A DNA stretch of 64,000 nt from Candidatus Zymogenaceae bacterium (GCA_016931225.1 JAFGFE010000008.1:1-64000); one strand, 5' to 3'; numbered from the stretch's first letter, positions 38,065 through 53,095 are shown. Translations and numbers: made by a program. Notes: generated by a model not told the origin, from the letters alone.

Positions 38065-38385
38065 ATGAAAAGTATATATAAGATCACGTCGGTTTCGATG
38101 GCTGTTTTGGCCCTGGCTTTGTTTGTATCGGTATCGGCTTTTGCCGTAGAGTCCGAACGGACCGCCTTCGTAAATGATCAGGTCGACCTCGAATCCCTCG
38201 AGAAGTTGGATTCATTGGTATTCATCAATGATACGGTCGACCTCGAGTCCATTGAGAAGATGGATTCGCTGGTGTTCATCAACGATACGGTCGATCTCGA
38301 CTCCCTCGAGAAGATGGATTCATTGGCATTCATCAATGATACGGTCGATCTCGAGTCCATCGAGAAGTTGGATTCACTCGTCTAA
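38065..38385 (+). CDS. Secreted protein made of four 18-residue repeats
   Basis: 106 residues. A standard signal peptide (K-S-I-Y-K then a hydrophobic core, ending SAFA-V-E) is followed by a six-residue linker and four back-to-back repeats to the last residue. The repeat is F-[IV]-N-D-[TQ]-V-D-L-[ED]-S-[LI]-E-K-[ML]-D-S-L-[VA]. It is acidic, Cys-free and has no known family in my reading. AAAAAAAGGAG lies close before the ATG. It could form a beta-solenoid or a Ca-binding rod through its Asp residues; that is inference. A perfect terminator follows, so it is monocistronic and probably well expressed. Confidence 0.75.
   Translation: MKSIYKITSVSMAVLALALFVSVSAFAVESERTAFVNDQVDLESLEKLDSLVFINDTVDLESIEKMDSLVFINDTVDLDSLEKMDSLAFINDTVDLESIEKLDSLV
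38167..38382 (+). repeat. Four tandem 54-bp repeats inside the secreted-protein gene
   Basis: Exactly four units of 54 bp with no spacer, from residue 35 to 106. Units 2-4 are nearly identical at the DNA level (GATACGGTCGA..CTCGA recurring), so they were duplicated recently and copy number may vary between strains. Confidence 0.9.
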
Positions 38386-38518: not shown

Positions 38519-39160
38519 CTATCCGAAGAGATATCGCTTGAACATGACCTGAAGTTCTGTGAGAATACGCTGTTCATCCACCTGTCCTTGGTATTTGTAG
38601 AGGAAGTGGAACAGCTCATGGGTTGCTCTGCTGATAATGATAATCGCAACGGGTATGTCGTCCACGGCGAGCTTTTCCCGGATCTCTTCCAGCCAGACGA
38701 TAATCTCCTTCGCCTCCTCCATCTCCCACCGATCGTGTATGCGGGCCGCCTCTTCGTTGACGGTGGCGAACCGCTGCATTTCCCTGTTCAGCTTGCCGTA
38801 GGTCGTGTGCGTTGTGTACATGGTTGTAAGGAGATAATCAATGGCGGTGTCCGGCTCCATTTTTTGTTCGCGGATCGTCTGAATGCAGTTCTTCGTCATC
38901 TCATAGATGGCGTGCGATCGCTCCTCCATGATGGTTAAAAATATTTCTTCCTTGTTGGGAAAGTGAGCGTACAGTCCCCCCACGCTCACCCGAGCCCCGT
39001 CTGCGATGAGATGAGTGGTGGTCTCCTCAAATCCCACATCCGTAAACAGCTCCTTGGCTGACTGGAGGATTCTCCTCCGGGTTTCCCGGGAGCGCTCCTG
39101 CACCGGTTGTTTTCCCCGGACGGCTGCCGGGCCGTATTCTTCTGCGTTCATCTGTTTCAT
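38519..39160 (-). CDS. TetR-family transcriptional regulator
   Basis: 213 residues. The N-terminal helix-turn-helix is at about 22-68: RRRILQSAKELFTDVGFEETTT then VSVGGLYAHFPNKEEIF, the standard TetR form. The C-terminal ligand domain is all-helical and unclassified, with VDDIPVAIIIISRATHELFHFLYKY near the end. It is divergent from the operon starting at 39630, whose promoter has a duplicated palindromic site, so local control of that operon and of itself is likely. Ligand unknown. Confidence 0.9.
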   Translation of the reverse strand: MKQMNAEEYGPAAVRGKQPVQERSRETRRRILQSAKELFTDVGFEETTTHLIADGARVSVGGLYAHFPNKEEIFLTIMEERSHAIYEMTKNCIQTIREQKMEPDTAIDYLLTTMYTTHTTYGKLNREMQRFATVNEEAARIHDRWEMEEAKEIIVWLEEIREKLAVDDIPVAIIIISRATHELFHFLYKYQGQVDEQRILTELQVMFKRYLFG

Positions 39161-39485: not shown

Positions 39486-39531
39486 CCGACGTCGAGTTCT
39501 ATTTTTTATTGACAATCCGAATCCGACGTCG
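39486..39531. promoter_or_regulatory. Paired CCGACGTCG sites, candidate TetR operator
   Basis: CCGACGTCG occurs at 39486-39494 and 39523-39531, 37 bases apart. The core CGACGTCG is a perfect palindrome. The second copy fills the end of the promoter spacer, so binding there would block RNA polymerase. Confidence 0.5.
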
Positions 39532-39537
39532 TATTAT
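39509..39537 (+). promoter_or_regulatory. Sigma-70 promoter of the 39630-45791 operon
   Basis: TTGACA (39509-39514), a 17-base spacer, TATTAT (39532-39537). The first gene starts about 93 bases downstream. Confidence 0.7.
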
Positions 39538-39629: not shown

Positions 39630-40256
39630 ATGGACGACGAACGAAAGCAACAGCTTCAGGCGACGGTGGAGGGATTGTGGGGCGTGATGAAGGATTTCGG
39701 CAAGACGGGTGAGGAGGCCATCCCCGCCGAGGAGGCCGCCGAGGAGCGGAGGGCCCTGGCGCGGCGGATCGGGCGGCTCTACCTAGCGTTTGCCCGGGTC
39801 CTGATAAAGCACTTGGGAGAGGATGAGGCGAGATCGGCCATCATGGAGGCCATGCGGGACTACTCCATGCAGTGCGCCGAGGCCCGGAAGGCGGGGATGA
39901 TGGACCTGCCCCAGCGGGGCATCCATAAAACCTCGGAGATCGTCGGCGAGGGCGGGGCGAGGCGGCTTGTGAGCACCGGGTGCGGCATCGCCCAGGAGTT
40001 TCGCCGCCAGGACGAGGAAAAGCTGGGAGCGCTCTATTGCTACGTAGATCCCTGCTCGTTCATGTTCACCATTCCGAACATCAAGCTCTATCACACCAAA
40101 ATGGAACCGTTGGGGGACGACTGCTGCGAGTTCGACCTGGGCATTGCGTCCGATGACGAGATGGCTGCGGTCACCGAGCCGGGACGGGACTACGGATTTG
40201 TAGACCCGATCATTGAGGAGCGGGCGCAGGGGGATCTCCTGAAGCACAAGAAATAG
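39630..40256 (+). CDS. ATC-hydrolase-like protein (L-2-amino-thiazoline-4-carboxylate hydrolase family)
   Basis: 208 residues. The helical N-terminal half and the Cys-rich C-terminal core (STGCGIAQEF, CYVDPCSFMF, GDDCCEFDLGI) resemble the ATC hydrolase family, in which a conserved Cys is important. Bacterial ATC hydrolase opens 2-amino-thiazoline-4-carboxylate on the way to cysteine; many homologs have other, unknown substrates. Of two adjacent ATGs, 39630 is best spaced from GGAGGG. First gene of the operon that also holds a cysteine desulfidase. Family assignment is by eye. Confidence 0.55.
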   Translation: MDDERKQQLQATVEGLWGVMKDFGKTGEEAIPAEEAAEERRALARRIGRLYLAFARVLIKHLGEDEARSAIMEAMRDYSMQCAEARKAGMMDLPQRGIHKTSEIVGEGGARRLVSTGCGIAQEFRRQDEEKLGALYCYVDPCSFMFTIPNIKLYHTKMEPLGDDCCEFDLGIASDDEMAAVTEPGRDYGFVDPIIEERAQGDLLKHKK

Positions 40257-40541
40257 CACCCGCACAACGCCGCGCACGCGTCTGAATCGTTGTGACCGAC
40301 GGTGGCCGAATCCTTGGGTCCACGGGCACGATCCACGGGCATCGGGGATGGAGGGAACGATTCGATCTCGAGGTGGGTGAAAAGAGGCGTCGATTATACA
40401 TCTCAAAACCGTCCGGACGCCCGGCGCGACGGATGGTCCGGGGTCGGGAGGCCGGTCTCGGGGAGATATAGCGATACGCGGGACATGACGGCACGAATTG
40501 ATTCTATACGAAAAAAATGAAAAAACTGAAAGGAAGATATC

Positions 40542-42317
40542 ATGGCGGAAACATATCACGATACCGACGTCCTGGTGATGGGCGGCGGCGGCGCGGGGTT
40601 TCGGGCCGCCATCGAAGCGGCTCATTCCGGCGTCCATGTGACTCTGGTCAGCAAGGGGCCGCTCGCCCGGTCCGGGGCAAGCCCCATGGCCGGGGCGGAC
40701 TTCACCCTGGACGGCACGAGCATGAACGAGCTGGGCCGGGAGGGGGACGTCAACGATTCAAAGGAAAAGGTCTTCAATGACATCGTGACCCAGGGGTGGT
40801 ATCTGAACAATCAGAAGCTGGTCGGGCAGTATGTCGACACGGCGAAGAGCCAGCTTGCCGACCTGATGGAGTGGGGCATCGACATCACGCTGTCGGACCA
40901 GCGGGCCATCTTCACCAGCGGGACCGGCATCATGGACGTGCTGTTAAAGAAGGCCCGGGCGGTCGGCGTCGAGCTCTTGGAGGACGTATCGATCCTGGAG
41001 CTGATGAAGACAGACGGCCGTATAGCCGGCGCCCTGGGGCTGGACGTCCGGACGGGCGAGTTCATCCGGTTCCGGGCGGGGGCGGTCGTCATCGCCTCCG
41101 GAGGCTGGCACAAGGCCTTCTGGCCCAACACCGGCATGCGGGACCTCTCCGGCGATGGGATCGCCGCCGCCTTCCGTGCCGGGGCGGATATCGGGAATAT
41201 GGAGTTCATCACATTCTGCTGCAACGTCTTCTACGCCCCTCCCATCTGGCGGGGGAGTCTCGCCCCGTATATCCTAAGCCTCGTCTGCGGCGGCCGCATG
41301 AGCGACCGAAACGGCGATGACCTGTTGAGCGGGTTCGATCCGGTGCTGCAGCAGAAGGGGGTGTTGACCGAGTGGAACAAGAGCTTCCTCTCGTACGTGT
41401 CCACCCTTGCCGCCCGGGAGGGAAGGGCGCTGGAAAACGGGGGAATTCACTACTCCCGGGGGGATGTCGACTGGGGATTCATGCAGATGGTCGGGGGGGT
41501 GATCTTCCCGAACTGGAAATACAAGGCGATAGACTTTTCCACCTGGGCTGAAAAGCTTGAGAAAAACGAGCCGGTGGAGGTGGGCCCGGCGGTGGAGTAC
41601 TTCGACGGGGGGATCGTCGTGGGCGACCGGTTCGAGACAACCGTCCCCGGCCTCTACGCCGCAGGGGAGGCGGCCCTGGGGGCGTTCGGGGCCAACCGGG
41701 TCTTCTCCGCCGTCACCGAGATGCTGGTGCAGGGAAGGGACGCGGGGCGCTTTTCCGCAGAGTTTGCAAAGGCCAAAAAGGCCCCGGAGCCGAAGCGAGA
41801 TGCCTTTCGGGAGGCGGAGGAGCGGGCGTGTGCGCCGCTATCGTGTACCGGTGGAGAGAATCCGCCGGCTGTGAGAAGAAACATCCAGGAGGCTGCCCAC
41901 AGGCGCTTGGGCCCGATTCGAAGCGAGGGTGAGCTGACCGCCTTCATCGGCATGCTCGAGGATGTTCAAAAGAACGTTCTTTCGAACCTCTCCGTCTCGT
42001 ACACCGGCAGGACGTACAACAAGGAATGGTTCGACGCCCTGGAGCTTCGGAACATCGTGGAGCTGCTCCTGGTATCCGCCAAGAGCGCCCGCCTTCGGAC
42101 AGAGAGCCGGGGCGTGCACTTTCGGGAGGATTTCCCGCATACGGACAACGACGCCTGGCTGTGTGAAACCATCGTCTCCAGGGGTGAAGATGCGATCGCC
42201 TTCTCGTCCCGGCCGGTGACCGTCCCACACATGACGCCGCCCCGGGGAAAGACGCCATATCTTGAGATGATGAAAACGCTCATGGAGGCGCATTCGGACA
42301 CCGGGGGCAAGCACTGA
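40542..42317 (+). CDS. FAD-binding flavoprotein, fumarate reductase/succinate dehydrogenase type
   Basis: 591 residues. The dinucleotide fold is at the N-terminus (VLVMGGGGAGFRAAIEA), followed by SKGPLARSGASPMAGADF, the site of the usual flavin contact, and the second FAD segment GLYAAGEAALGAFGANRVFSA near residue 370. The last 170 residues are the helical domain of the flavoprotein family. The catalytic Arg/His set of fumarate reductase is not evident, so the substrate is open. Electrons probably pass to the small [2Fe-2S] protein encoded next. AAAGGAAGATATC precedes the ATG. 285 bases separate it from the gene before. Confidence 0.8.
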   Translation: MAETYHDTDVLVMGGGGAGFRAAIEAAHSGVHVTLVSKGPLARSGASPMAGADFTLDGTSMNELGREGDVNDSKEKVFNDIVTQGWYLNNQKLVGQYVDTAKSQLADLMEWGIDITLSDQRAIFTSGTGIMDVLLKKARAVGVELLEDVSILELMKTDGRIAGALGLDVRTGEFIRFRAGAVVIASGGWHKAFWPNTGMRDLSGDGIAAAFRAGADIGNMEFITFCCNVFYAPPIWRGSLAPYILSLVCGGRMSDRNGDDLLSGFDPVLQQKGVLTEWNKSFLSYVSTLAAREGRALENGGIHYSRGDVDWGFMQMVGGVIFPNWKYKAIDFSTWAEKLEKNEPVEVGPAVEYFDGGIVVGDRFETTVPGLYAAGEAALGAFGANRVFSAVTEMLVQGRDAGRFSAEFAKAKKAPEPKRDAFREAEERACAPLSCTGGENPPAVRRNIQEAAHRRLGPIRSEGELTAFIGMLEDVQKNVLSNLSVSYTGRTYNKEWFDALELRNIVELLLVSAKSARLRTESRGVHFREDFPHTDNDAWLCETIVSRGEDAIAFSSRPVTVPHMTPPRGKTPYLEMMKTLMEAHSDTGGKH

Positions 42318-42350
42318 AAAGACTTGTCGACAGACACGAAAGGTGACACA

Positions 42351-42677
42351 ATGGTACAGAAAAATATCACCGTAACGGTCCTTCGAACGGACCCGGAAAA
42401 AAGCGACGCCGGGACGAAACAACGCTACACCGTGCCCTTCACCGAAGGCATGAGCGCCATGGACGTTCTGGATTATATTTATCAGCACCTAGATAGCTCA
42501 GTTGCCTACTACGATCACGCAGGGTGCGGCCTGGGAATCTGCGCCCGGTGCACCGGCAGGATCAACGGAAAGGCGGGGCTCTTCTGCCAGACGCCCGTGG
42601 ACGGCGGGGGAGAGCTGGTGCTGGAGCCGACCGGCAAGGACCGGGTCCAGAGGGACCTGGTGATGAAGAAGAAATAA
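42351..42677 (+). CDS. [2Fe-2S] ferredoxin-like protein (SdhB/FrdB N-terminal type)
   Basis: 108 residues. Three Cys of the plant-type cluster are in CGLGICARC and the fourth in KAGLFC, arranged as in the N-terminal domain of succinate dehydrogenase iron-sulfur subunits. The C-terminal dicluster domain of SdhB is absent. With the flavoprotein 33 bases upstream it probably makes a two-subunit soluble oxidoreductase. AAAGGTGACACA precedes the ATG at 42351. Confidence 0.85.
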   Translation: MVQKNITVTVLRTDPEKSDAGTKQRYTVPFTEGMSAMDVLDYIYQHLDSSVAYYDHAGCGLGICARCTGRINGKAGLFCQTPVDGGGELVLEPTGKDRVQRDLVMKKK

Positions 42678-42733
42678 CCGGAAAGGGCGGCTTCCCGGCC
42701 GCCTTCCCGTCGGTCCATATCGAGGATGAAAGC

Positions 42734-44113
42734 ATGGGATATGATGAAGACCTGATTCTGGAGACGCTGCGGCGCTATGTGGTGCCCGCCCTGGGCTGTA
42801 CCGAGCCGGTGGCGGTGGCCCTGGCGGCGGCCCGGGCCGCACGGATCCTTGAAACCGAGCCCGATCGCATCATGGTGACCCTGGACCGGGACATGCTCAG
42901 AAACGCCTTTGCCGTGGGGATACCGGGCACCGGCGAGCGGGGGGTGAAGATCGCCGCCGCCCTGGGGGCCTTCGGCGGGGACCCGGATCGGGGACTGATG
43001 GTCATATCGGACGTGCCCGAAGCCGCACGGAAAAAGGCCTCCCGGTTTGTGGAGCACACGGGTGTGGAGGTGATGCTGGATACCGACGCCGACGACATAC
43101 ATATCCTCGTGGAGCTGTTTTCCGGTGACCACTCCGCCTCGGTGCTGGTGGAGGGGGCCCACGAACGGGTCACCCGGATGACCAGGGACGGTGGGGTCGT
43201 CTTCACTAAGGACGCCGACGACGGCGGGGTGGAAAAATGGGTCTCGTACTTTTCCACACTGGACATCGGGGACGCTCGATCCTTCATCGATAATGTCAAT
43301 CTCGATGACATCGCCTTCATGGAGGAGGGGCTCACCCTTACGCTGGCGGCGGCGAAGGTGGGAATCGGGGAAACAGTGGGTCTGGGGTACGGTTCGGATC
43401 TCGATGCCCTCGTCCATCCCGGATTTTCCATCCAGAACATCGTGGCCCGGGCGAGGGTGGAGGCGGCGGCGGCATCCGGCGCCCGGATGGCGGGGTTTTT
43501 GGTGCCGGTCATGTCCAGCTTCGGCAGCGGCAACCAGGGCATCGTCGTCAACGCCGTGGTGGGCGCCGTGGCCCGGCAGGCCGGGTACCTCGATACGGCG
43601 TGGCTTTCGGGGAAGAAAGATGAGAACCCCGGAACGGTTGATACCGGCGGTCCATCCATCATCCCAGAAGAGCACAGGGAGCGGCTGCTGAGGACCCTGG
43701 CCCTGGCGCACCTGGTCGTCGGGCTGGCAAAGTCCCACACCGGCATGCTCTCCCCCTACTGTGAGGCGGCGGTCACCACGGCGGGCGCCGCCTCGGCGGC
43801 CTCGGTGTATCTCTTGGGCGGGGACATGCCGAGGATGGAAAACGCCTTTCTGTTGACCGTCGCCGCCACCGAGGGGGTGTTCTGTGACGGGGCCAAGGAA
43901 TCCTGCGCCCTGAAAACCGCCATGGGGGCCGGGGCCGCGGTGGAAAACGCCTATCTCTCCCTCTATTATAATGCGGCTTCCAGAAGCATGGGGGTGGTTG
44001 GAAAGAATTTTGCGCATACCATGAGGAACTTCGGCCGCCTCGCCAAAAATACCGGCCTGGGGGATATCATTCTGAAGCTTTTGATGGAAGAGGATGTATA
44101 TCTCGATACGTAA
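42734..44113 (+). CDS. cyuA: L-cysteine desulfidase family protein (CyuA/YhaM, UPF0597)
   Basis: 459 residues. Conserved Cys-containing blocks are ALGCTEPVAVALAAA at the start, SPYCEAAVTTAGA and GVFCDGAKESCALKTAMGAG, expected ligands of a [4Fe-4S] cluster as in serine dehydratase alpha-type enzymes. MSSFGSGNQGI is also characteristic. The family breaks L-cysteine to pyruvate, ammonia and sulfide. GAGGATGAAAGC precedes the ATG at 42734. Its place after a probable ATC hydrolase suggests that the operon yields and then splits cysteine or a cysteine-like product. Confidence 0.85.
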   Translation: MGYDEDLILETLRRYVVPALGCTEPVAVALAAARAARILETEPDRIMVTLDRDMLRNAFAVGIPGTGERGVKIAAALGAFGGDPDRGLMVISDVPEAARKKASRFVEHTGVEVMLDTDADDIHILVELFSGDHSASVLVEGAHERVTRMTRDGGVVFTKDADDGGVEKWVSYFSTLDIGDARSFIDNVNLDDIAFMEEGLTLTLAAAKVGIGETVGLGYGSDLDALVHPGFSIQNIVARARVEAAAASGARMAGFLVPVMSSFGSGNQGIVVNAVVGAVARQAGYLDTAWLSGKKDENPGTVDTGGPSIIPEEHRERLLRTLALAHLVVGLAKSHTGMLSPYCEAAVTTAGAASAASVYLLGGDMPRMENAFLLTVAATEGVFCDGAKESCALKTAMGAGAAVENAYLSLYYNAASRSMGVVGKNFAHTMRNFGRLAKNTGLGDIILKLLMEEDVYLDT

Positions 44114-44265
44114 ACCGACGGCGCTTGAGACGAGCGGGAGACAGGCCGTCGTTGCGAAAACAAAAATCGGGACCGAAAAACCCGTCTGGTCATGGGAGAT
44201 GAAACCTGCTATGATGTCCTGAAGGGTCGCTGATATAAACACATCACCACATTCAGGAGGATGAG

Positions 44266-45567
44266 ATGGAACACGAAGCGGTGCGGCTGTTGTCCGAATA
44301 CCTGAAGCTGAACACCACGAATCCCCCGGGAAACGAGCACAAGGGTGTCAGGTTCTTCGCCGATATTTTCGACGCCGAGGGAATTGAATACAAAACGTAC
44401 GAATCACTCCCGGGTCGGGGCTCGATCCGGGCGGTCATCAAGGGCACGGGCAAAAAGGATCCGCTGACGCTTTTGAACCATATCGACGTGGTCCCGGCCA
44501 ATGCCGAGGAATGGAACTTCGATCCCTTCAGCGGCGAGGTGACCGATGGGATGATTCGGGGGCGCGGGGCGCTGGACATGAAGGGCCAGGGCATCCTGGA
44601 GCTGATGGCGTTTCTCGTAATCAAAAGACAGGGAATAACACCGAACCGCGATCTGATATTCGTCGCGGTGGCCGACGAGGAGATGGGCGGTGGGCTCGGT
44701 ATGGGATGGCTGTTGGAAAATCACCCCGAGGACTTCCCGAAGGGCACCGTCATCAACGAGGTCGGGTTCACGCTGACGGACCTGCTCCCCTCGGGCCCGC
44801 TGGCCATGGTGGCGCCGGCGGAAAAGGGGCCGTGCTGGCTGCGACTTGTTCGGAAGGGGGAGCCGGGCCACGGCTCCATGCCCCACGATAAAAACGCCCT
44901 GCATCTGATGATCGAGGCGCTGGGCCGTCTGATAGCGGCGGAACGCCCGATCATCATCACCTCCATCACCGCGGAATACTTCAAAAACCTTGCCACGGGC
45001 TGGGAGTTCTTGAAGCCCTACGTCGAAGACGGAAAGGAAGAGACCCTGGTGGAGATCCTCAAGACCAGCGGGCTTCTCTCCATGCCCCAGATGAAGGCGG
45101 TGGTCACCAATACCCTGAGCGTCAACAAGCTGACCGCCGGGGACAAGACCAACGTCATCCCCAGCCATTGCGAGGCGGAGCTTGACGTGCGGCTGCTGCC
45201 GGGTCAGAAGATTGATGACTTCATCGCCTTTATCCGAAAGACCCTGGAGGATGACGAGATAGAGATAGAAATCATCTACGCCTGCGAGGCGAGCTGGTCG
45301 TCCATGGATACCGACGACTACCGGACGATGCTGGATATCATCAAAAAGCACAATCCTGGTGCGGTGGTCACCCCCTGGCTTATCGCCGGCACCACGGACA
45401 GCCGTTTTTATCGTGTGGCCGGTGCAGACGCATACGGTATCCTGCCGGTGTCCATTCCCCTGAGCCATGTCAAGATGATTCACGGCATCGACGAGCAGAT
45501 ATCAGTCGAGAACGTGGTGACCGGAACGGAGATTTTCACCGAGATCGTCACGACCCTGTGTACGTGA
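44266..45567 (+). CDS. M20-family metallo-peptidase/amidohydrolase
   Basis: 433 residues of the ArgE/DapE/carboxypeptidase G2 group. Zinc and catalytic residues are in LLNHIDVVP (His, Asp), GRGALDMKG (bridging Asp) and AVADEEMGG (catalytic Glu pair). The dimerisation domain begins near residue 195 (GEPGHGSMPHDKNALH), and the last His is in IPLSHVKMIHGIDE. It would cleave an amide of an amino acid. GGAGGATGAG precedes the ATG. It follows cyuA by 152 bases and may provide the amino acid for the enzymes upstream. Confidence 0.88.
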   Translation: MEHEAVRLLSEYLKLNTTNPPGNEHKGVRFFADIFDAEGIEYKTYESLPGRGSIRAVIKGTGKKDPLTLLNHIDVVPANAEEWNFDPFSGEVTDGMIRGRGALDMKGQGILELMAFLVIKRQGITPNRDLIFVAVADEEMGGGLGMGWLLENHPEDFPKGTVINEVGFTLTDLLPSGPLAMVAPAEKGPCWLRLVRKGEPGHGSMPHDKNALHLMIEALGRLIAAERPIIITSITAEYFKNLATGWEFLKPYVEDGKEETLVEILKTSGLLSMPQMKAVVTNTLSVNKLTAGDKTNVIPSHCEAELDVRLLPGQKIDDFIAFIRKTLEDDEIEIEIIYACEASWSSMDTDDYRTMLDIIKKHNPGAVVTPWLIAGTTDSRFYRVAGADAYGILPVSIPLSHVKMIHGIDEQISVENVVTGTEIFTEIVTTLCT

Positions 45568-45584
45568 TCGAAAGGAAACAGACC

Positions 45585-45791
45585 GTGAAGCCCTTCAGGA
45601 TCTTTCCGCTGTGGCGGCGTATACGGGAAGGGGGCCTTGATCTGGCCGCCGACGCCATGAACAGGGCGGGGACAAAAAGGGTCCTGCTCTCCCCCTACGA
45701 CACCTGCGATCACGGCCTTGAGCGGTTTCGAAAGCTCCTGGATGCGGACGTCACTATCCTCGAGGCGGGGGGGAGGTATCGCATCGAATAG
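45585..45791 (+). CDS. Small hypothetical protein at the operon end
   Basis: 68 residues, basic N-terminus (M-K-P-F-R-I-F-P-L-W-R-R) and an alternating C-terminal half (DADVTILEAGGRYRIE). No family. The GTG at 45585 follows GAAAGGAAACAGACC; a GTG at 45558 inside the previous gene is an alternative. A terminator starts 23 bases after its stop, which supports it as last gene of the run. Confidence 0.5.
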   Translation: MKPFRIFPLWRRIREGGLDLAADAMNRAGTKRVLLSPYDTCDHGLERFRKLLDADVTILEAGGRYRIE

Positions 45792-45877: not shown

Positions 45878-46276
45878 CTACGGCCTCTGGACATGACAGT
45901 CAAGACATTCCGTGGGCGGGGTTTTTCCCTCCGCCTGCTCTTCCAAGTGACAGACCACGCAGCTTTTGTGCATGGCGTCCTTAAAGGGGATCTCCTTCGT
46001 ATTGGCGTTATGACACGATGAGCACAGCGGAGGCACTCCCTCGGTAAAATCCTCGGCGTTTGTGTGGTGACAGGTCACGCATGTAAGGCCCAGATCGTCC
46101 TGGTGATAGGCGTGCTTGAAGTCCACCGGCAGATACCGGGTTGTGGCCTTTGTCACGTCGTCTATCTTCATCACGTCGGGACCGTACTCCTGACAGACGG
46201 CGACAATGCACACGCAGCAGAGAAAAAGAACCACAGCGAAAACGGCCGGGAGAATTCTGTTTGTTCTTTTCATCAT
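45878..46276 (-). CDS. Exported tetrahaem class III cytochrome c
   Basis: 132 residues: signal peptide (M-M-K-R-T-N-R and a hydrophobic core to about residue 28) then four haem sites, CVTCH, CSSCH, CVVCH and CLDCH, with distal His in FKHAYHQDDLG and FKDAMHKS. This is the cytochrome c3/c7-type fold used for periplasmic electron transfer in sulfate and metal reducers. Nine bases separate it from the flavoprotein gene in front, so it is the likely electron partner of that enzyme. Confidence 0.92.
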   Translation of the reverse strand: MMKRTNRILPAVFAVVLFLCCVCIVAVCQEYGPDVMKIDDVTKATTRYLPVDFKHAYHQDDLGLTCVTCHHTNAEDFTEGVPPLCSSCHNANTKEIPFKDAMHKSCVVCHLEEQAEGKTPPTECLDCHVQRP

Positions 46277-46285
46277 CCATCCTTT

Positions 46286-47911
46286 CTATTCAATGCCTTC
46301 CATGTCCAGAATGAGCCGGGCAGCCCGCCAGCCGTTGACCTGACAGGCGCTGAACCCATGCCACCCCTGGGTCCAGTTGCCGGCAATGAATACGTTGTCG
46401 ATGGGAGTATTGTTGGGTATCTTCTGCCACTGCTCGGGACTCAGGTAGAATCCGTAGATGACACCCTTGTAGTTCATGGTGTACTCCTCGAGGGTGAAAG
46501 GAGTCATCACGACCATCTCCTCAACGTATTCCGGATTCGCAAGCTCCGGGATGACATCCGCCGCCACGAGTATCTCTTCCCAGGCCTTTTCCATCTTAAG
46601 CTTCTGATACTCTTCCGGATCCTTCGGCCAGTAATCGTAGTTGGAGTAGGCGTCGATAACCACCACGGATTTCCCCTCCGGTGCATAGACCGGGTCGCCG
46701 TAGTTGGTATAGATGGAGATGGAGGCGGCGCCTTCGGCGAAGTTACCGCTCATCATGTTGTCATAGACCGCATCGGCGTCCAGGCTTCTGCTATACAAGA
46801 TCTCCCCGTCGTCATATCCGAGGGCTTTGAGATCGATGTTCAGGCCCAGGTAGATGCCCAACAGCGAGTTTGCGATCTCGAGGTTCTTCACCTTGTCCAC
46901 GTAGTCCTTGGGCAGGTTCTCTTCCCCGATGAGGGTGAAGATCATCTGATGCGGGTCCGTGTTGCAGACGATATACCGGGCGGTGTAGACGTCGCCGTAC
47001 TCGGTCTCGACACCGCGGGCGAGGCCGTCTTCAATGATGATCTTGGTAACCAGGGTGCCGACCTTCACCGTGCCGCCCAGCTCCTCGATGCGCTCTGCAT
47101 AGGCGTAGGAGAGGTTCTGTGAGGTGCCCATGACATGAAACAGCCCGTCGTTGAGGAGCGCTTCCGTTGCCGCCATGGGTACGATGGCCGTTTCTTCGGA
47201 CGGGGGTGGGCCGTAATAGACCCAGGCGTGCCCGCACACGGCCTTGAGCTCTTCGGAGACGAAGCACTCGTCCAGAAGATCCTGAAAGGATTTATCCTTG
47301 TACTCGAAGAAGATCTTTTGTTTGAGGGGGACCTGAACCTTCACGAAAAACGCCTTCAAGCCGGTGTAGCGGAACAGGTTCTTCACGCTCATCAGTTCAT
47401 CGTACAGCCCGGTACACAGGGTGTGGAATTTATCGATGCCTTCGGACTCCTCGGGCCACTGTGCCTTCAGGTTCTCCACTGTGCCGTCCCATGTATTGGG
47501 AACGACCACATCCACGCCGGGGAATACGGATCGATAGTAGTCATCCAGCTCGTAAAGCTCGACCTTGTCATAGACGCCGCACATATTCAGCAGCGTATAC
47601 AGTCCTCGATCGTTTCTTCCGGGTCCGCCTCCGGCCATCAGGTGCAGGGCCGTTTCAAAGGTAAAATCGCCCCGGGAGAAGTTGGAGGCGCATCCTCCCA
47701 CCTTGTGATGCTGTTCCAGCAGCAGTACTTTCAACCCGTTGGAGGCCAGGTGGGCCCCTGCGGAAAGTCCCGCCATTCCGCCGCCGATGACGATAACGTC
47801 ATATTCGGCGTCAAAGTCCGGCGCCTCTTTTGTACCGCAGCCCGTGAGAATGAGAAAACAGGCCAGGGCCACGATGGCAGGTAGGTAAAAGATACGGCGT
47901 GTTTTGTTCAT
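46286..47911 (-). CDS. Exported FAD-dependent oxidoreductase, Tat-type lipoprotein
   Basis: 541 residues. The N-terminus has KTRRIFYL, close to the Tat motif, and a lipobox ILTGC with Cys25, so the protein should be folded with FAD, exported and lipid-anchored. The FAD site is DVIVIGGGMAGLSAGAHLAS, followed by LEQHHKVGGCASNF, as in the phytoene desaturase/CrtI-like amine oxidase superfamily; the C-terminus has VFIAGNWTQGWHGFSACQVNG. Substrate unknown. AAGGAGACTCTC precedes the ATG at 47911. With the tetrahaem cytochrome it forms a two-gene periplasmic redox unit. Confidence 0.85.
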   Translation of the reverse strand: MNKTRRIFYLPAIVALACFLILTGCGTKEAPDFDAEYDVIVIGGGMAGLSAGAHLASNGLKVLLLEQHHKVGGCASNFSRGDFTFETALHLMAGGGPGRNDRGLYTLLNMCGVYDKVELYELDDYYRSVFPGVDVVVPNTWDGTVENLKAQWPEESEGIDKFHTLCTGLYDELMSVKNLFRYTGLKAFFVKVQVPLKQKIFFEYKDKSFQDLLDECFVSEELKAVCGHAWVYYGPPPSEETAIVPMAATEALLNDGLFHVMGTSQNLSYAYAERIEELGGTVKVGTLVTKIIIEDGLARGVETEYGDVYTARYIVCNTDPHQMIFTLIGEENLPKDYVDKVKNLEIANSLLGIYLGLNIDLKALGYDDGEILYSRSLDADAVYDNMMSGNFAEGAASISIYTNYGDPVYAPEGKSVVVIDAYSNYDYWPKDPEEYQKLKMEKAWEEILVAADVIPELANPEYVEEMVVMTPFTLEEYTMNYKGVIYGFYLSPEQWQKIPNNTPIDNVFIAGNWTQGWHGFSACQVNGWRAARLILDMEGIE

Positions 47912-48463
47912 GAGAGTCTCCTTGTATCTGGTGGTGAATATGCAACACGGATGTGATGCGGTTATGGATATAACGATCACCGCTGAACATCCGGGTAGAT
48001 GGTGGAGTGAGGAGTAATATGCCGGAAAAATCGGAATAAAAAGGCCGTGTCGGCGAACGACGTCCGTCGATGAGAAGCGGTGCAGAACTGCATGCGGCCG
48101 GAGATATCCCGCCGATGCCGGGTGTGGAGGGATGAACAGTCATGTCACTCCCTGTATGATGGGTACGATTGTAAACAAGCCGACGGGAGATGTCAATATA
48201 ATTAGCACAAGAGAGTCATTTAAACGGACGTTAATAATGGCGGAGAAATCCGACCATGATGGAAAAGTCTCCCGGTTTTCGACCGAGGGCCGTGTACAGG
48301 AACGGAGGATGTTTTTTCACCCATCGGTATCCCGATTTGTATGTTTCAGACGTTCCGGATGAGTTCACGCGGACGCTTGTCAGGCACCGCTGTTGTGTGG
48401 TATACAGGAACGGTATCGTGTATCCGATATGTATTTCTTCTGTGAAGACCGACCGGGGGCCTC
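47912..48463. other. Intergenic between divergent genes, nothing supported
   Basis: It should carry the promoters of the flavoprotein-cytochrome pair and of the first sulfatase. Short frames reach into the sulfatase gene from 48256 but are out of its frame. No clear promoter pair or hairpin was identified. Confidence 0.35.
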
Positions 48464-49918
48464 ATGAAGAGACGGGAGTTCTTGAAATCGGCGGGACTCG
48501 TGACCGCCGCCATGACCGGTATGAGCCTGGGGGGGCCGGGGTGCACGGGGGCGGGAGAGCCCAGCCCCGATGCGCCCAATTTTCTCTTCATCACCGCGGA
48601 CAACCTGGGCTGGAAAGACCTCTTTTCCTTCGGCAACCCCAATATCCACACCCCGAATATCGACCGCCTGGCGAATGAGGGAATGCGCTTCACCCGGGCG
48701 TTCGTCACCTCGTCGAGCTGTTCCCCCAGCCGGGCCACGTTCCTCACCGGCCAGTATCCCCACACCAACGGGGTGGTGGGCATCACCAACCGGCATTTTT
48801 TCATGCAGCTCTCCCCCTGTGCCGTCACCCTGCCAAAGCTCTTAAATCGGGCGGGATACACGACCGCCCTGGAGGGGAAGTGGCACCCGGCGGTGTTTTT
48901 GCCCGCGAAGTGGTACGGTTTCACCGAGCGGTTCGGCGGGCTTGCCACCAGTGCCGAGGAGATGTGGATTACCGACACCTCTCGGACCTGGGAATTTCTC
49001 GAGCGAAACAAGGACACCCGCTTCTACCTGGAGATGAACTTCATGAACAACCACCGGGATCCCTACGGGCGGATGACCTTCGCCGAGGACTTTCCGGTGA
49101 ACCCGGAGGCGGTTGTCGTCCCGGACTACTGGGCGCTGCCGGACTGGCCGGAGATCAGAGACGACATCGCCCGGTACTACAGCCAGACCATGGAGATGGA
49201 CCGGCTCATCGGGGAGGTGCTGGACATGCTCGACGAGCTGGGTTTGGCCGAAAACACATTTGTCTCTTTCTTGAGCGACAACGGTCCCCAGATGCCGGGG
49301 CACATCATGGCGCTGTATGACCGGGGCGTGCAGACGCCGCTTCTGATGCGCTGGCCGAAGAGAATCCCGGCGGGGGTCGACTACGACGGTCTTGTCAGCA
49401 CGGTGGACCTGATGCCCACCTTTCTCGACGCCGTGGGGCTTGAGATACCGGACGACGTCCAGGGGGTATCGCTGCTGCCGGTCATCACCGGGGAGGAAAC
49501 GGGTGCCGTCCGGGACGCGGTGTTTCTGGAGATGGACTATCACGTCTACTCCATCCCCACCCGGGGGGTGCGCACCGAGCGGTATAAATACCTGAAAAAC
49601 TATTCGGACACGGCCATCGGCCTCGACCAGCTCAACAACGCCGAGTGGGCCCGTCGCCTCTGCGAGCTGTCGAACCATCCCTGGATGCGCCCCCGGAAGC
49701 CCGAGGAGCTCTATGACCTGGAGACGGACCCGAACGAGCAGGTGAACCTTGCGGGCGATCCGGCCTATGCCGGGGCCCTGGAGGAGATGCGTGGCCGCCT
49801 TCGAGCGTGGCAGGAGGAGACGGCTGACCCCTTCCTGGATGCCCCGTTCACCCTGGATTACGAGGAAAATAAAGAGATTTACAAGCCGACGGATCCGGAA
49901 GAGCGGGCGTACAAGTAG
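48464..49918 (+). CDS. Tat-exported sulfatase (formylglycine type), copy 1
   Basis: 484 residues. Signal MKRREFLKSAG is a Tat motif; a Cys follows near residue 27 (GGPGC), so it may also be a lipoprotein. Sulfatase core: FITADNLGWKDL for metal, active-site Cys86 in SSCSPSRATFLTGQYPH (C-x-P-S-R, changed to formylglycine), EGKWHPAVF and SDNGPQMPGH for the second metal site. The C-terminus has the sulfatase ending ELYDLETDPNEQVNL. It removes sulfate from a sulfated sugar or other ester outside the cytoplasm. Starts a two-gene tandem. Confidence 0.92.
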   Translation: MKRREFLKSAGLVTAAMTGMSLGGPGCTGAGEPSPDAPNFLFITADNLGWKDLFSFGNPNIHTPNIDRLANEGMRFTRAFVTSSSCSPSRATFLTGQYPHTNGVVGITNRHFFMQLSPCAVTLPKLLNRAGYTTALEGKWHPAVFLPAKWYGFTERFGGLATSAEEMWITDTSRTWEFLERNKDTRFYLEMNFMNNHRDPYGRMTFAEDFPVNPEAVVVPDYWALPDWPEIRDDIARYYSQTMEMDRLIGEVLDMLDELGLAENTFVSFLSDNGPQMPGHIMALYDRGVQTPLLMRWPKRIPAGVDYDGLVSTVDLMPTFLDAVGLEIPDDVQGVSLLPVITGEETGAVRDAVFLEMDYHVYSIPTRGVRTERYKYLKNYSDTAIGLDQLNNAEWARRLCELSNHPWMRPRKPEELYDLETDPNEQVNLAGDPAYAGALEEMRGRLRAWQEETADPFLDAPFTLDYEENKEIYKPTDPEERAYK

Positions 49919-49998
49919 CTCCCTTTCGGGAGACGATCGAACAGGGACAGGCCTACGCTGTTTCTCTTTTTATTCTTATTCGAACTGCGAGGTATGGT

Positions 49999-51456
49999 AT
50001 GAAACGACGAGACTTTTTGAAAGGTACGGCGATTGCCGCCCTCGCCGGAACGGGGCTCTGCGGCCTTGGAATTTCCGGATGTTCTCGGGAGTTCGCAAAT
50101 GATCCCGATCTCCCCAACGTGATATTCATTACCGCCGACGACCTGGGGTGGCTCGACCTCTCCTCCTTCGGCAACCCCGATATCGAAACCCCGAACATCG
50201 ACCGCCTGGCCGATGAGGGGATACGTTTTACCCAGGCCTTCGTGGTGGCGTCGAGCTGCTCGCCCAGCCGGGCCAGCATGATCACCGGGCAGTATCCCCA
50301 CACCAACGGCGTGGATTCCCTGACCCACGTGCGCTTCAAGAAGCAGCTCAGGCCGGGCTACACGACGATGCCGTCGCTTCTGAAGAAGCGGGGCTACAAC
50401 ACCGCCATTGAGGGGAAGTGGCACGTCGCCCCCTACTTCTTCACCAGTTGGTACGGATACCGGGAGCGGCTGGGGGGCATCGCCCTCAAGAGCGAAGATA
50501 TGTGGATCAAGGACACGGACCTGACCATGGAGTTCCTGGAGCGGAACAAGGACAACCGCTTCTACCTGGAGCTCAACTACATGAACAACCACAGGAAAGA
50601 CGACGGCGAGTTCTACTTCGACGAGGACTTCCCCGTCGATCCCGAGAAGGTCCACGTGCCCGACTACTGGACTCTGCCGGACTGGGAGGAGATACGGCTG
50701 GAGGTGGCGAAGTTCTACAGTCAGACTCTCAAGATGGACTCCATGATCGGGGAGGTGCTGGACAAGCTCGACGAGCTGGGGATCGCGGACGAGACGCTCG
50801 TTATCTTCGTCTCGGACAACGGGCCGCCCTTTCCGGGCAACAAGATGACCCACTACGATCGGGGCACGGGAACGCCGCTCCTGATGCGATGGCCGGAAAA
50901 GATCCCCGCGGGACTGATCTATGACGGGCTGGTCAGCACCATCGACATCATGCCGACGGTGCTGGACGCCGTGGGCGTCGAGATCCCCGAGGAGCTCCAG
51001 GGGACGAGCCTGTGGCCCGTGGCGATGGGAGTGGAGACCGGGCCGGTCCACGACGCGGTCTTCAACGAGATGACCTATCACGTCTACTACCTGCCGGGAC
51101 GGGCGGTCAGGACCACGAAATACGAATACATCAGGAACTATTCGGACATCGCCAAGGGGCTGGACCAGTGCAACCACATGGAGTGGGCCCATCGGGTCTG
51201 TGAGCTTCCCAACCAGCCCTGGAAGAGTCCCCGGGTGCCGGAAGAGCTGTACGACCTGAGAAAGGACCCGAACGAGCAGGTGAACCTGGTGGACGATCCG
51301 GCATATGCGGGAGTACTGGATGAGATGCGGGCGCTTCTGGACGAGCACATGGAGAAGACGAATGACGCCTACCTGGGCGCCCCCTTCACCCATGACTACG
51401 AGGAATATAAAGAGATATACGAGATGGTCATCCCTGAGGAGCCTGCGGACAAGTAA
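49999..51456 (+). CDS. Tat-exported sulfatase, copy 2
   Basis: 485 residues, a clear tandem duplicate of copy 1 over its whole length. Tat motif MKRRDFLKGTA; Cys near residue 28 (GISGC) fits a lipobox. Metal site FITADDLGWLDL keeps two Asp where copy 1 has Asp-Asn; active-site Cys87 in SSCSPSRASMITGQYPH; EGKWHVAPY and SDNGPPFPGN complete the site. The two copies share the unusual ending (YEEYKEIYE / YEENKEIYK). 80 bases after copy 1, so probably co-transcribed, with different substrate preference. Confidence 0.92.
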   Translation: MKRRDFLKGTAIAALAGTGLCGLGISGCSREFANDPDLPNVIFITADDLGWLDLSSFGNPDIETPNIDRLADEGIRFTQAFVVASSCSPSRASMITGQYPHTNGVDSLTHVRFKKQLRPGYTTMPSLLKKRGYNTAIEGKWHVAPYFFTSWYGYRERLGGIALKSEDMWIKDTDLTMEFLERNKDNRFYLELNYMNNHRKDDGEFYFDEDFPVDPEKVHVPDYWTLPDWEEIRLEVAKFYSQTLKMDSMIGEVLDKLDELGIADETLVIFVSDNGPPFPGNKMTHYDRGTGTPLLMRWPEKIPAGLIYDGLVSTIDIMPTVLDAVGVEIPEELQGTSLWPVAMGVETGPVHDAVFNEMTYHVYYLPGRAVRTTKYEYIRNYSDIAKGLDQCNHMEWAHRVCELPNQPWKSPRVPEELYDLRKDPNEQVNLVDDPAYAGVLDEMRALLDEHMEKTNDAYLGAPFTHDYEEYKEIYEMVIPEEPADK

Positions 51457-51625
51457 TCCCCTCGGGAAGCGACCGGACGGGAGCCGATCGTGCGGATGAC
51501 CGTGCCGGGATGGGAGGAGGGGCGACATCTTTGATATCTCGATCTCTTGACTTGCCTCCTTCATCTTCTGTGGAGGGGGTGAGTTTTATTTTTTGGGGGG
51601 TGTCGTCTTGCCGGGCCTATCGGCG

Positions 51626-51664
51626 AAAAAAACCCGCGCCCGCCCCGATATCCGGGACGGGCGC
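51626..51664 (-). terminator. Terminator of the third sulfatase transcript
   Basis: GCGCCCG (51636-51642) pairs with CGGGCGC (51658-51664); on the minus strand the hairpin is followed by GGG and seven T (51632-51626). It lies 28 bases after the sulfatase stop. Confidence 0.75.
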
Positions 51665-51691
51665 CGATACATTTGTGGCTGCGTAGAGTCG

Positions 51692-53095
51692 TTATGTTTC
51701 CAGCTCCGCCTCGAGCGTGTGCATCAAATTGGCAAGCTCCGTCGTCAATTCCTCCCCCTCGGGTGTGCCGAAAAGATCATTTTCCTCCTTGGGATCCACC
51801 GTCAGATCATACAGTTCCGGCTTCCTCCTCCCCTCGAACTGGACGAACTTATGGGTCTTCGTCCTCACCCCGATCATATTCGGCACGTCCTCGGGGAAGT
51901 ATTTATAGTATTCATAGAACCAGGCGTCCCTCCCCGGCGCATCGGCCCGGGAGAGTATGGGCAGGAAGCTCGTCCCCTGGACGTGATCGGGGATGTCCAG
52001 CCCGGCAAGCTCAAGCAGCGTCGGCGCCAGGTCCACGTTGAGGACCATCTGGGAGCGGGTGCCGCCCTCATCCGGCACCAGCCAGGGGCACCGGACTATG
52101 AACTGTATCTTGATGGACTCCTCGTAGTGCCAGTTGATGCCGATGAGGCGGTGTTCACCCCACAGGTAGCCGTTATCGGAGGCGTAGATGACGATGGTAT
52201 CATCGGCCACTCCCGCCTCATCGAGGTAGGTGAGCACACGACTGATCTCCCTGTCCATCCCGGTGACGGCCTCGCAGTAGCGCCGATAGAGATTTTCGAT
52301 GGAGCCGACCATCGTCCCCTCAAAGACGTTGCCGTCGGCCCGCCCCAGCCACGGGTCTACCTCACCGGGGATGGGGGGCGTCTCATCTGCGTACATGCCG
52401 GCCAGGTCTTTCGGCGGCAGAAACGGAAAATGGGCGGTCTTGTAGGAGAGGTAGAGGCAGAAGGGGTTGTCCCGCTCCCGATCGAGGTACGAAAGCGCCC
52501 GGTCCGTCAGCTCCGTGATGAGATACGGTGTGTTGGAGGGCTCTTCCTTCCCGTTGACCACCAGGGGGCAGTCGAAATACTGGCCCTGGTGCTCCTTGAT
52601 GGTGAACGACACGTACTCGTTCAGGTACGGCAGCTCCGGCAGCCCCTCGCCGGGGAGGTGGAACTTCCCGATGAAGGCGGTGTCGTAGCCCGACTCCGAG
52701 AGGTTCTCCAGGAAAAAGGGCATCGATCCGGTCCAGGGCGTGTGGTTGTTCAGGACGCCGTGACTCCGGGCGTACGCCCCGGTCAAAAAGCTCGCCCGGG
52801 ACGGGCTGCACAAGGATGTAGTGCAGAAGGCGTTTTCGAACAGCAAGCCTTCCCCGGCCAGGCGATCCAGGGCCGGCGTCTGGATGAAGGGATGCCCCGT
52901 GACGCCCAGGCAGTCGTAGCGGACATTGTCGCTGAGGATAAAGATGATATTCGGTCGCCGGGCCGGCGCCCCGTCGGCTTCCCCCGGAATGGACAGGCCC
53001 GTGAGTCCCGCCGCCGCCGTGGCCCCCATGACCTTCAGCATATCCCGCCGGGTGATATCGGTATAAAACGGATTGTTTTTGTTTTTTTCGGACAT
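51692..53095 (-). CDS. Tat-exported sulfatase, copy 3 (different subgroup)
   Basis: 467 residues. N-terminal TRRDMLKVMG is a Tat motif after a 15-residue leader. Metal site IIFILSDNVRYDCLG; active-site Cys96 in SLCSPSRASFLTGAYARSHG; IGKFHLPG and ASDNGYLWGEH follow. This is closer to the choline-sulfatase/heparan-N-sulfatase-like group than to copies 1 and 2 and points the other way. The C-terminal LYDLTVDPKEENDL is standard. A membrane protein gene lies 25 bases upstream in the same operon. Confidence 0.9.
   Translation of the reverse strand: MSEKNKNNPFYTDITRRDMLKVMGATAAAGLTGLSIPGEADGAPARRPNIIFILSDNVRYDCLGVTGHPFIQTPALDRLAGEGLLFENAFCTTSLCSPSRASFLTGAYARSHGVLNNHTPWTGSMPFFLENLSESGYDTAFIGKFHLPGEGLPELPYLNEYVSFTIKEHQGQYFDCPLVVNGKEEPSNTPYLITELTDRALSYLDRERDNPFCLYLSYKTAHFPFLPPKDLAGMYADETPPIPGEVDPWLGRADGNVFEGTMVGSIENLYRRYCEAVTGMDREISRVLTYLDEAGVADDTIVIYASDNGYLWGEHRLIGINWHYEESIKIQFIVRCPWLVPDEGGTRSQMVLNVDLAPTLLELAGLDIPDHVQGTSFLPILSRADAPGRDAWFYEYYKYFPEDVPNMIGVRTKTHKFVQFEGRRKPELYDLTVDPKEENDLFGTPEGEELTTELANLMHTLEAELET

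Follow-up and report, generated by a model that had tools for sequence, protein, structure and literature searches.

A predicted TetR-controlled operon with a three-protein flavoenzyme and a cysteine desulfidase, and its possible role in consuming a cysteine-derived compound

Gene content of the locus

This study concerns a predicted operon in a 64,000-nucleotide stretch of DNA from a Candidatus Zymogenaceae bacterium, an anaerobe of sediment type (GCA_016931225.1, JAFGFE010000008.1:1-64000), and the whole stretch is called the window here. The operon begins with a gene for a 208-aa subunit of the ATC_hydrolase family (V4R/Bet3 fold; 39630..40256, plus strand; PF14196, 35.9 bits, above the cut-off of 28.1), where ATC stands for 2-aminothiazoline-4-carboxylate. 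On the same strand it is followed by an SdhA-like flavoprotein of 591 aa that binds flavin adenine dinucleotide (FAD) (40542..42317; PF00890 FAD_binding_2 and PF02910 Succ_DH_flav_C) and a stand-alone [2Fe-2S] protein of 108 aa (42351..42677; Fer2_3, PF13085, 1e-19). Next come a CyuA-type L-cysteine desulfidase of the SDH_alpha family with the Cys-Thr-Glu motif and three cluster cysteines (42734..44113; PF03313) and an M20 metallo-amidohydrolase of the aminoacylase/ArgE-DapE type (44266..45567; PF01546, 1.1e-26; PF07687, 3.5e-15). The gaps between these genes are 285, 33, 56 and 152 bp, respectively. The desulfidase starts at the first ATG (42734), and the GTG at 42524 is an over-extension. 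This operon probably lets the cell consume a cysteine-derived ring compound.

A previous reading of the window, made by a model without database searches (the sequence-only reading), had placed a six-gene catabolic operon for a sulfur-containing amino-acid derivative at 39630-45791. Its coordinates were exact to the base, from the ATG of the first gene at 39630 to the last stop at 45791, and domain searches confirmed the families of its ATC-like, FAD, [2Fe-2S], desulfidase and M20 genes. In addition, its assignment of the first gene to the ATC family holds by profile search, as the PF14196 score shows.

Control region

A TetR-family regulator (38519..39160, minus strand; PF00440, 1.4e-14) is transcribed divergently from the operon. 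The top-scoring sigma-70-like site in the region between the TetR gene and the ATC-like gene is a plus-strand promoter pattern at 39509-39537, consisting of TTGACA (39509-39514), a 17-nt spacer and TATTAT (39532-39537). Two CCGACGTCG palindromes, at 39486-39494 and 39523-39531, are likely TetR operators, and the second falls within the promoter spacer. The same arrangement was found in G002 (locus L009), which represents another genus of the same family and has a 54% identical TetR in the same position. The palindrome form common to both genomes is CGACGTCG, with two boxes each. In G002, the promoter hexamers and the two boxes upstream of the ATC-like gene are kept at near-identical spacing, although the surrounding DNA is not conserved. 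This conservation supports a predicted TetR-controlled transcript beginning at the ATC-like gene, as the sequence-only reading had proposed. When both genomes were scanned with the pattern, paired sites occurred here only. The other matches were single and looser and lay near the background of the reversed pattern, and no wider TetR regulon was found in the two genomes.

The flavoprotein and the 2Fe-2S protein

The flavoprotein carries the hallmark motifs WHKAFWPNTGMRDLSG, NMEFITFCCN and VEYFDGGI. A scan of the species genome collection gave relatives at 24 loci with 53-66% identity, and the record titles of these relatives include Spirochaetes, Deltaproteobacteria, Nitrospinota, Acidobacteria-type bacteria, Poribacteria, Selenomonadales and others. 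A search of plasmids returned only distant matches (<60%). The alignments with SdhA and within the clade showed that the covalent-FAD His, His242, Arg286 and His354 are all lost, and only the equivalent of Arg399 is kept (positions in E. coli SdhA numbering). His242 is replaced by Cys and His354 by Glu, and a near-invariant FCCN motif and Glu/Tyr stand in place of the lost residues. In SdhA, His242 and His354 serve the dicarboxylate substrate and Arg286 transfers protons. Their loss points to a substrate that is not succinate and speaks against succinate- or fumarate-type chemistry. The residue pattern fits C-N bond oxidation, without proving it. An ordinary fumarate reductase was rejected, because the active-site residues are missing.

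The [2Fe-2S] protein corresponds to the N-terminal half of SdhB only. It has just the Fer2_3 domain, and thus is not a three-cluster iron-sulfur subunit. In nearly all loci its gene lies within a few hundred bases of the flavoprotein gene. Separately, L117 and L118 (genomes G151 and G305) encode a more distantly related flavoprotein that is accompanied by a 2Fe-2S gene of its own, with DctPQM-type genes of a tripartite ATP-independent periplasmic (TRAP) transporter nearby, which suggests a wider family of import-linked dehydrogenases.

The ATC-like subunit

In an alignment of 30 members of the ATC-like subunit, C118, D140 and C166 are invariant and C138 is present in nearly all. The AlphaFold2 model of the subunit (predicted local distance difference test score, 89) matched TRAPP Bet3 and the V4R domains of the phenol sensors PoxR and MopR in Foldseek (probability 1.00, E ~1e-3), with modest TM-scores of 0.4-0.5. 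A previous study united PF14196 with V4R and HNOB through three Cys and reported that ATC hydrolase cleaves the C-S bond of a thiazoline (PMC5847659). The three Cys shared with V4R were found in the window protein. However, this protein is the weakest-scoring of four PF14196 members in its own genome. Because the three better-scoring members lie elsewhere, apart from the flavoprotein and 2Fe-2S genes, the name of PF14196 is too specific, and PF14196 membership was not accepted as proof that the protein acts on thiazolines. Membership is uninformative about the substrate. The fold is compatible with either a ligand-binding domain or a ring-opening hydrolase, and sequence alone does not choose between them.

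The desulfidase and the amidohydrolase

The 2025 study of the Methanococcus enzyme MmCyuA found that a Cys23/Glu25 dyad separates CyuA from serine dehydratases, while three cluster Cys are common to both, and that Arg223 and Asn239 lie near the ligand (PMC12647591). The dyad is present in the window desulfidase and in all other linked loci (PALGCTEP). The three Cys of the [4Fe-4S] cluster (SPYC, FCDG and KESC, at aligned positions) and the Arg and Asn (ARM, SGN) are also kept in the window and its linked relatives. Furthermore, the only PDB matches of the desulfidase are solved CyuAs (9he0/9fsl, E 3e-23). Since the residues specific to CyuA are present, cysteine is likely the terminal amino acid of this operon. 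The end products would then most likely be pyruvate, ammonia and sulfide, as established for the CyuA family. In the CyuA tree, the linked members are spread over at least two well-separated subclades, and several forks are left open by the tree. This distribution suggests that the association of CyuA with the flavoenzyme arose more than once, by repeated recruitment.

The M20 protein matched both Peptidase_M20 and M20_dimer and has the metal-ligand motifs NHIDVV, RGALDMKG, DEEMGG and HGIDE. Its best PDB match is aminoacylase-1. Among the family models, the best scores belong to PRK07906, ArgE/DapE and aminoacylase, and no carbamoylase is among the best 25 of 49. Orthologues with 51-56% identity lie beside CyuA in L015 and L019. 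By these matches the enzyme appears to resemble an aminoacylase rather than the carbamoylase of the Pseudomonas ATC route, and it is likely an N-acyl-cysteine deacylase. We also observed that close M20 paralogues end operons for 2-oxoacid:ferredoxin oxidoreductase on contig C10 of G000 (L124) and contig C23 of G002 (L123), a context pointing to amino-acid fermentation.

Recurrence of the trio and linkage to CyuA

We compared 26 distinct loci, the window and L009 included. An ATC-family gene was found nearby in 24 of them by an iterated profile, and the exceptions are L022, which lies at a contig edge, and L025. In L018, L019 and L020, the 2Fe-2S and ATC domains form one continuous gene. Because the three genes travel together across phyla and these fusions occur, the ATC-like, 2Fe-2S and FAD proteins (the trio) very likely make up one enzyme. 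The sequence-only reading had proposed a flavoprotein pair with a redox role. The role fits the evidence, and the gene fusions refine the pair to one unit that includes the ATC-like subunit.

A CyuA gene lies within 8 kb in nine of the 26 loci (the window, L014, L015, L019, L023, L024, L026, L032 and L034). Several of these have the order FAD-Fer2-ATC-CyuA(-M20) in a single direction, and L023 and L026 have CyuA directly next to the ATC gene. Of 395 genomes sampled from the phylum, 11 encode the flavoprotein, 32 encode CyuA and 4 encode both, against an expected 0.9 (hypergeometric P 0.008). In each of these four, the two genes are at most 6 kb apart, for which the chance is about 1e-12. The linkage between the flavoprotein and CyuA is far beyond chance. 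In addition, a search of the same 395 genomes that began from the desulfidase gave a fifth linked genome, G157, whose locus L080 is the tenth CyuA-linked locus overall. Its order is MarR-ATC-FAD-Fer2-CyuA, followed by an Nramp transporter and an amino-acid permease, and its flavoprotein is divergent (36-44% identity to the others). Thus, the co-occurrence survey suggested by the sequence-only reading showed that the gene set recurs, with linkage and in rearranged forms, in many phyla.

The neighbours of the trio across the loci include M24 Xaa-Pro-type peptidases (L022, L031, L032 and L034), a second M20 type, amino-acid racemases, aminotransferases, an amino-acid permease, and importers of the TAXI/TRAP or ATP-binding cassette (ABC) type. 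These genes fit a modified amino acid as the substrate. As a separate observation, L021 and L036 have a gene of the uroporphyrinogen-decarboxylase (UROD) family, methyltransferase-like, directly after the trio.

Other genes in the window

The sixth gene of the sequence-only reading was a 77-aa open reading frame (ORF) at 45558..45791 (plus strand). No family was found for it. Across all loci it matched a single relative, the final ~60 aa of a hydrolase with metallo-beta-lactamase (MBL) fold in L016 (E 1.7e-10), where the intact gene sits ~5 kb upstream of the flavoprotein. Because its homology is solely to the C-terminus of this hydrolase, the ORF was rejected as an operon component and is considered debris.

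Adjoining the TetR gene, at 38065-38385 (plus strand), is a gene for a secreted-looking protein of 106 aa with nearly four copies of the 18-residue repeat FINDTVDLESLEKMDSLV, a 54-bp tandem repeat in the DNA. At 45878-47980 (minus strand), a tetraheme cytochrome c3-like gene adjoins a gene for an exported, lipoprotein-like flavoprotein of the phytoene desaturase/carotenoid isomerase family, and the two are possibly a periplasmic flavoprotein-cytochrome pair. Three arylsulfatase-like genes, two of them tandem, lie at 48464-53095. In L009 and L024, sulfatase genes are likewise found at most 7 kb from the trio, and this proximity perhaps merely reflects sulfatase-rich genomes.

Proposed function and alternative explanations

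The best explanation of these results, mechanism included, is in our tentative view an operon under TetR control for the catabolism of a cysteine-derived compound. A substrate of the thiazolidine type is possible, and we put it forward with some reserve. In this proposal, the FAD flavoprotein would carry out a two-electron oxidation at the C-N bond of a thiazolidine-4-carboxylate, that is, a cysteine-aldehyde adduct such as thioproline, and give a thiazoline, and the electrons would pass via the 2Fe-2S centre to cellular electron carriers. The ATC-like subunit would hydrolyse the thiazoline to an N-acylcysteine (N-formylcysteine in the case of thioproline); the relative that gave its family the name opens the thiazoline ring in ATC. 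The M20 enzyme would then remove the N-acyl group, and CyuA would split the resulting cysteine into pyruvate, ammonia and sulfide. The chain that we infer, from thiazolidine through thiazoline, N-acylcysteine and cysteine to CyuA, employs every gene. Previous studies reported that thioproline is converted to N-formylcysteine in bacteria and mitochondria (PMC9814826) and that FAD-dependent PutA oxidises thioproline (PMC12899673). The oxidation and the ring opening are therefore established chemistry, carried out by other enzymes. It is doubtful, though conceivable, that the trio represents a new class of anaerobic flavoenzyme, built from three subunits (an SdhA-like FAD protein, a single 2Fe-2S protein and a V4R-fold ATC-family hydrolase), that oxidises and opens the S-N rings of cysteine-aldehyde adducts and gives anaerobes a dedicated means of drawing carbon, nitrogen and sulfide from thiazolidine carboxylates.

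Several results weigh against this explanation. For the trio as a whole, there is no relative of solved structure. The identity between the window ATC-like subunit and the others is mostly 13-35%, and hydrolase activity in this subfamily is predicted only. The M20 gene is linked in some loci only, and other neighbours also vary among loci (TRAP, branched-chain ABC and major facilitator superfamily transporters), and the substrate may thus differ from member to member. CyuA is absent from 9 of the 16 flavoprotein-bearing genomes checked, several of which are incomplete metagenome-assembled genomes. G002, whose ATC-like protein is 75% identical and whose operator is the same, has an aminotransferase of the LL-diaminopimelate type instead of CyuA. 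Given these carriers lacking CyuA and this aminotransferase, modified amino acids as a class may be the substrates of the flavoenzyme, with the cysteine form as one of them.

This leads to the first alternative, which has a minority but serious chance of being right. In this view the trio would be a dehydrogenase of general scope, acting on amino acids that carry an N-substituent or another modification. The ATC-like protein would be a ligand- or metal-binding partner of V4R type and no hydrolase, and M20, M24, aminotransferase or CyuA enzymes would process the released amino acid, which in this genome is cysteine. The frequent absence of CyuA and the change of downstream enzymes from locus to locus (CyuA, aminotransferase, M24, UROD) are both in keeping with it. 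So is the fold of the ATC-like subunit, which matches sensor and TRAPP domains, none of them a hydrolase. Furthermore, the wider flavoprotein family is also found without a nearby ATC partner (L114-L116). However, linkage to CyuA recurs and involves distinct CyuA clades, and the flavoproteins form a tight clade whose active-site motifs are near-invariant, which suggests one kind of substrate.

An improbable alternative is the breakdown of a cysteine with a substituent on its sulfur, for example S-(2-succino)cysteine or a mercapturate, where the flavoprotein would oxidise the S-substituent to leave N-acetylcysteine, and deacetylation by M20 and degradation by CyuA would follow, as in Bacillus yxe (scm). 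The known route for S-(2-succino)cysteine does end with an N-acetylcysteine deacetylase (PMC9706529), and the flavoprotein descends from succinate-type enzymes, but its dicarboxylate-binding His and Arg are replaced, the operon has no N-acetyltransferase, and the ATC-like subunit would be left without an evident function.

The literal ATC route, from 2-aminothiazoline-4-carboxylate through carbamoyl-cysteine and an amidohydrolase to cysteine and CyuA, has a PF14196 score above the cut-off and the Pseudomonas set of ATC hydrolase and amidohydrolase (PMC10821248) on its side. It was nevertheless rejected, and is in our view quite improbable, because the best-conserved part, the flavoprotein together with the 2Fe-2S protein, would have no role, because the M20 enzyme is aminoacylase-like, and because the window protein is the lowest-scoring PF14196 member of its genome. 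The flow in the sequence-only reading was the opening of a ring or amide, redox by the flavoprotein and a split to pyruvate, ammonia and sulfide. As a flow it fits, and the CyuA residues are present; its literal 2-aminothiazoline/carbamoyl version is not supported. Finally, chance neighbours, that is, a flavoenzyme operon merely beside amino-acid catabolic genes, are a very remote and already disfavoured explanation: the wide ATC-FAD and CyuA-M20 gaps and the commonness of M20 genes would allow it, but the linkage is repeated in unrelated phyla and in five families of one phylum sample, with a chance product of ~1e-12 for the four linked genomes, and the operator is conserved in G002.

If the proposed role is correct, it would identify an as yet missing anaerobic path that leads from thioproline and related cysteine adducts to sulfide, and the ATC_hydrolase/V4R fold would be able to serve as a flavoenzyme subunit. 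The trio occurs widely among uncultured bacteria of sediment and groundwater, across many phyla, where the default family labels are "fumarate reductase" or "ATC hydrolase". The function of this large orphan family becomes directly testable with purchasable substrates.

Comparison with known systems

The literature searched gave no published account of this trio or operon, which agrees with the statement of the sequence-only reading that it knew of no described pathway with this set. The closest systems each share a part of it. The window desulfidase shares with MmCyuA the three cluster Cys, the Cys/Glu dyad, the Arg and the Asn. In E. coli, cyuA sits with a cysteine importer in a cyuPA-type system (PMC9040844). 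In contrast, the window CyuA stands behind a flavoenzyme and an ATC-family subunit and is followed by an amidohydrolase, and the operon has no importer. The Pseudomonas route of L-ATC hydrolase and carbamoyl-cysteine amidohydrolase also combines a PF14196 protein with an amidohydrolase leading to cysteine, whereas the window adds the flavoprotein and 2Fe-2S protein, an M20 enzyme of aminoacylase type and a catabolic end via CyuA.

With SdhA-SdhB (PDB 7d6v, 1nek), the window shares the flavoprotein fold, the C-terminal domain and the N-terminal half of SdhB. However, its flavoprotein has a CC motif instead of the covalent-FAD His and the dicarboxylate His/Arg, and an ATC-family third subunit is found instead of the [3Fe-4S]/[4Fe-4S] half and the membrane anchor. 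The Bacillus yxe (scm) operon for S-(2-succino)cysteine likewise leads from a damaged cysteine through N-acylcysteine and deacylation to cysteine (PMC9706529), but it uses a flavin mononucleotide monooxygenase or lyase and an acetyltransferase, where the window has an anaerobic-type FAD/2Fe-2S unit and CyuA. The oxidation of thioproline by PutA/ProC and in mitochondria is the same chemistry as proposed here, from thiazolidine-4-carboxylate to N-formylcysteine (PMC9814826, PMC12899673). In PutA/ProC these are side reactions of proline enzymes, whereas the window would encode a dedicated and unrelated enzyme unit.

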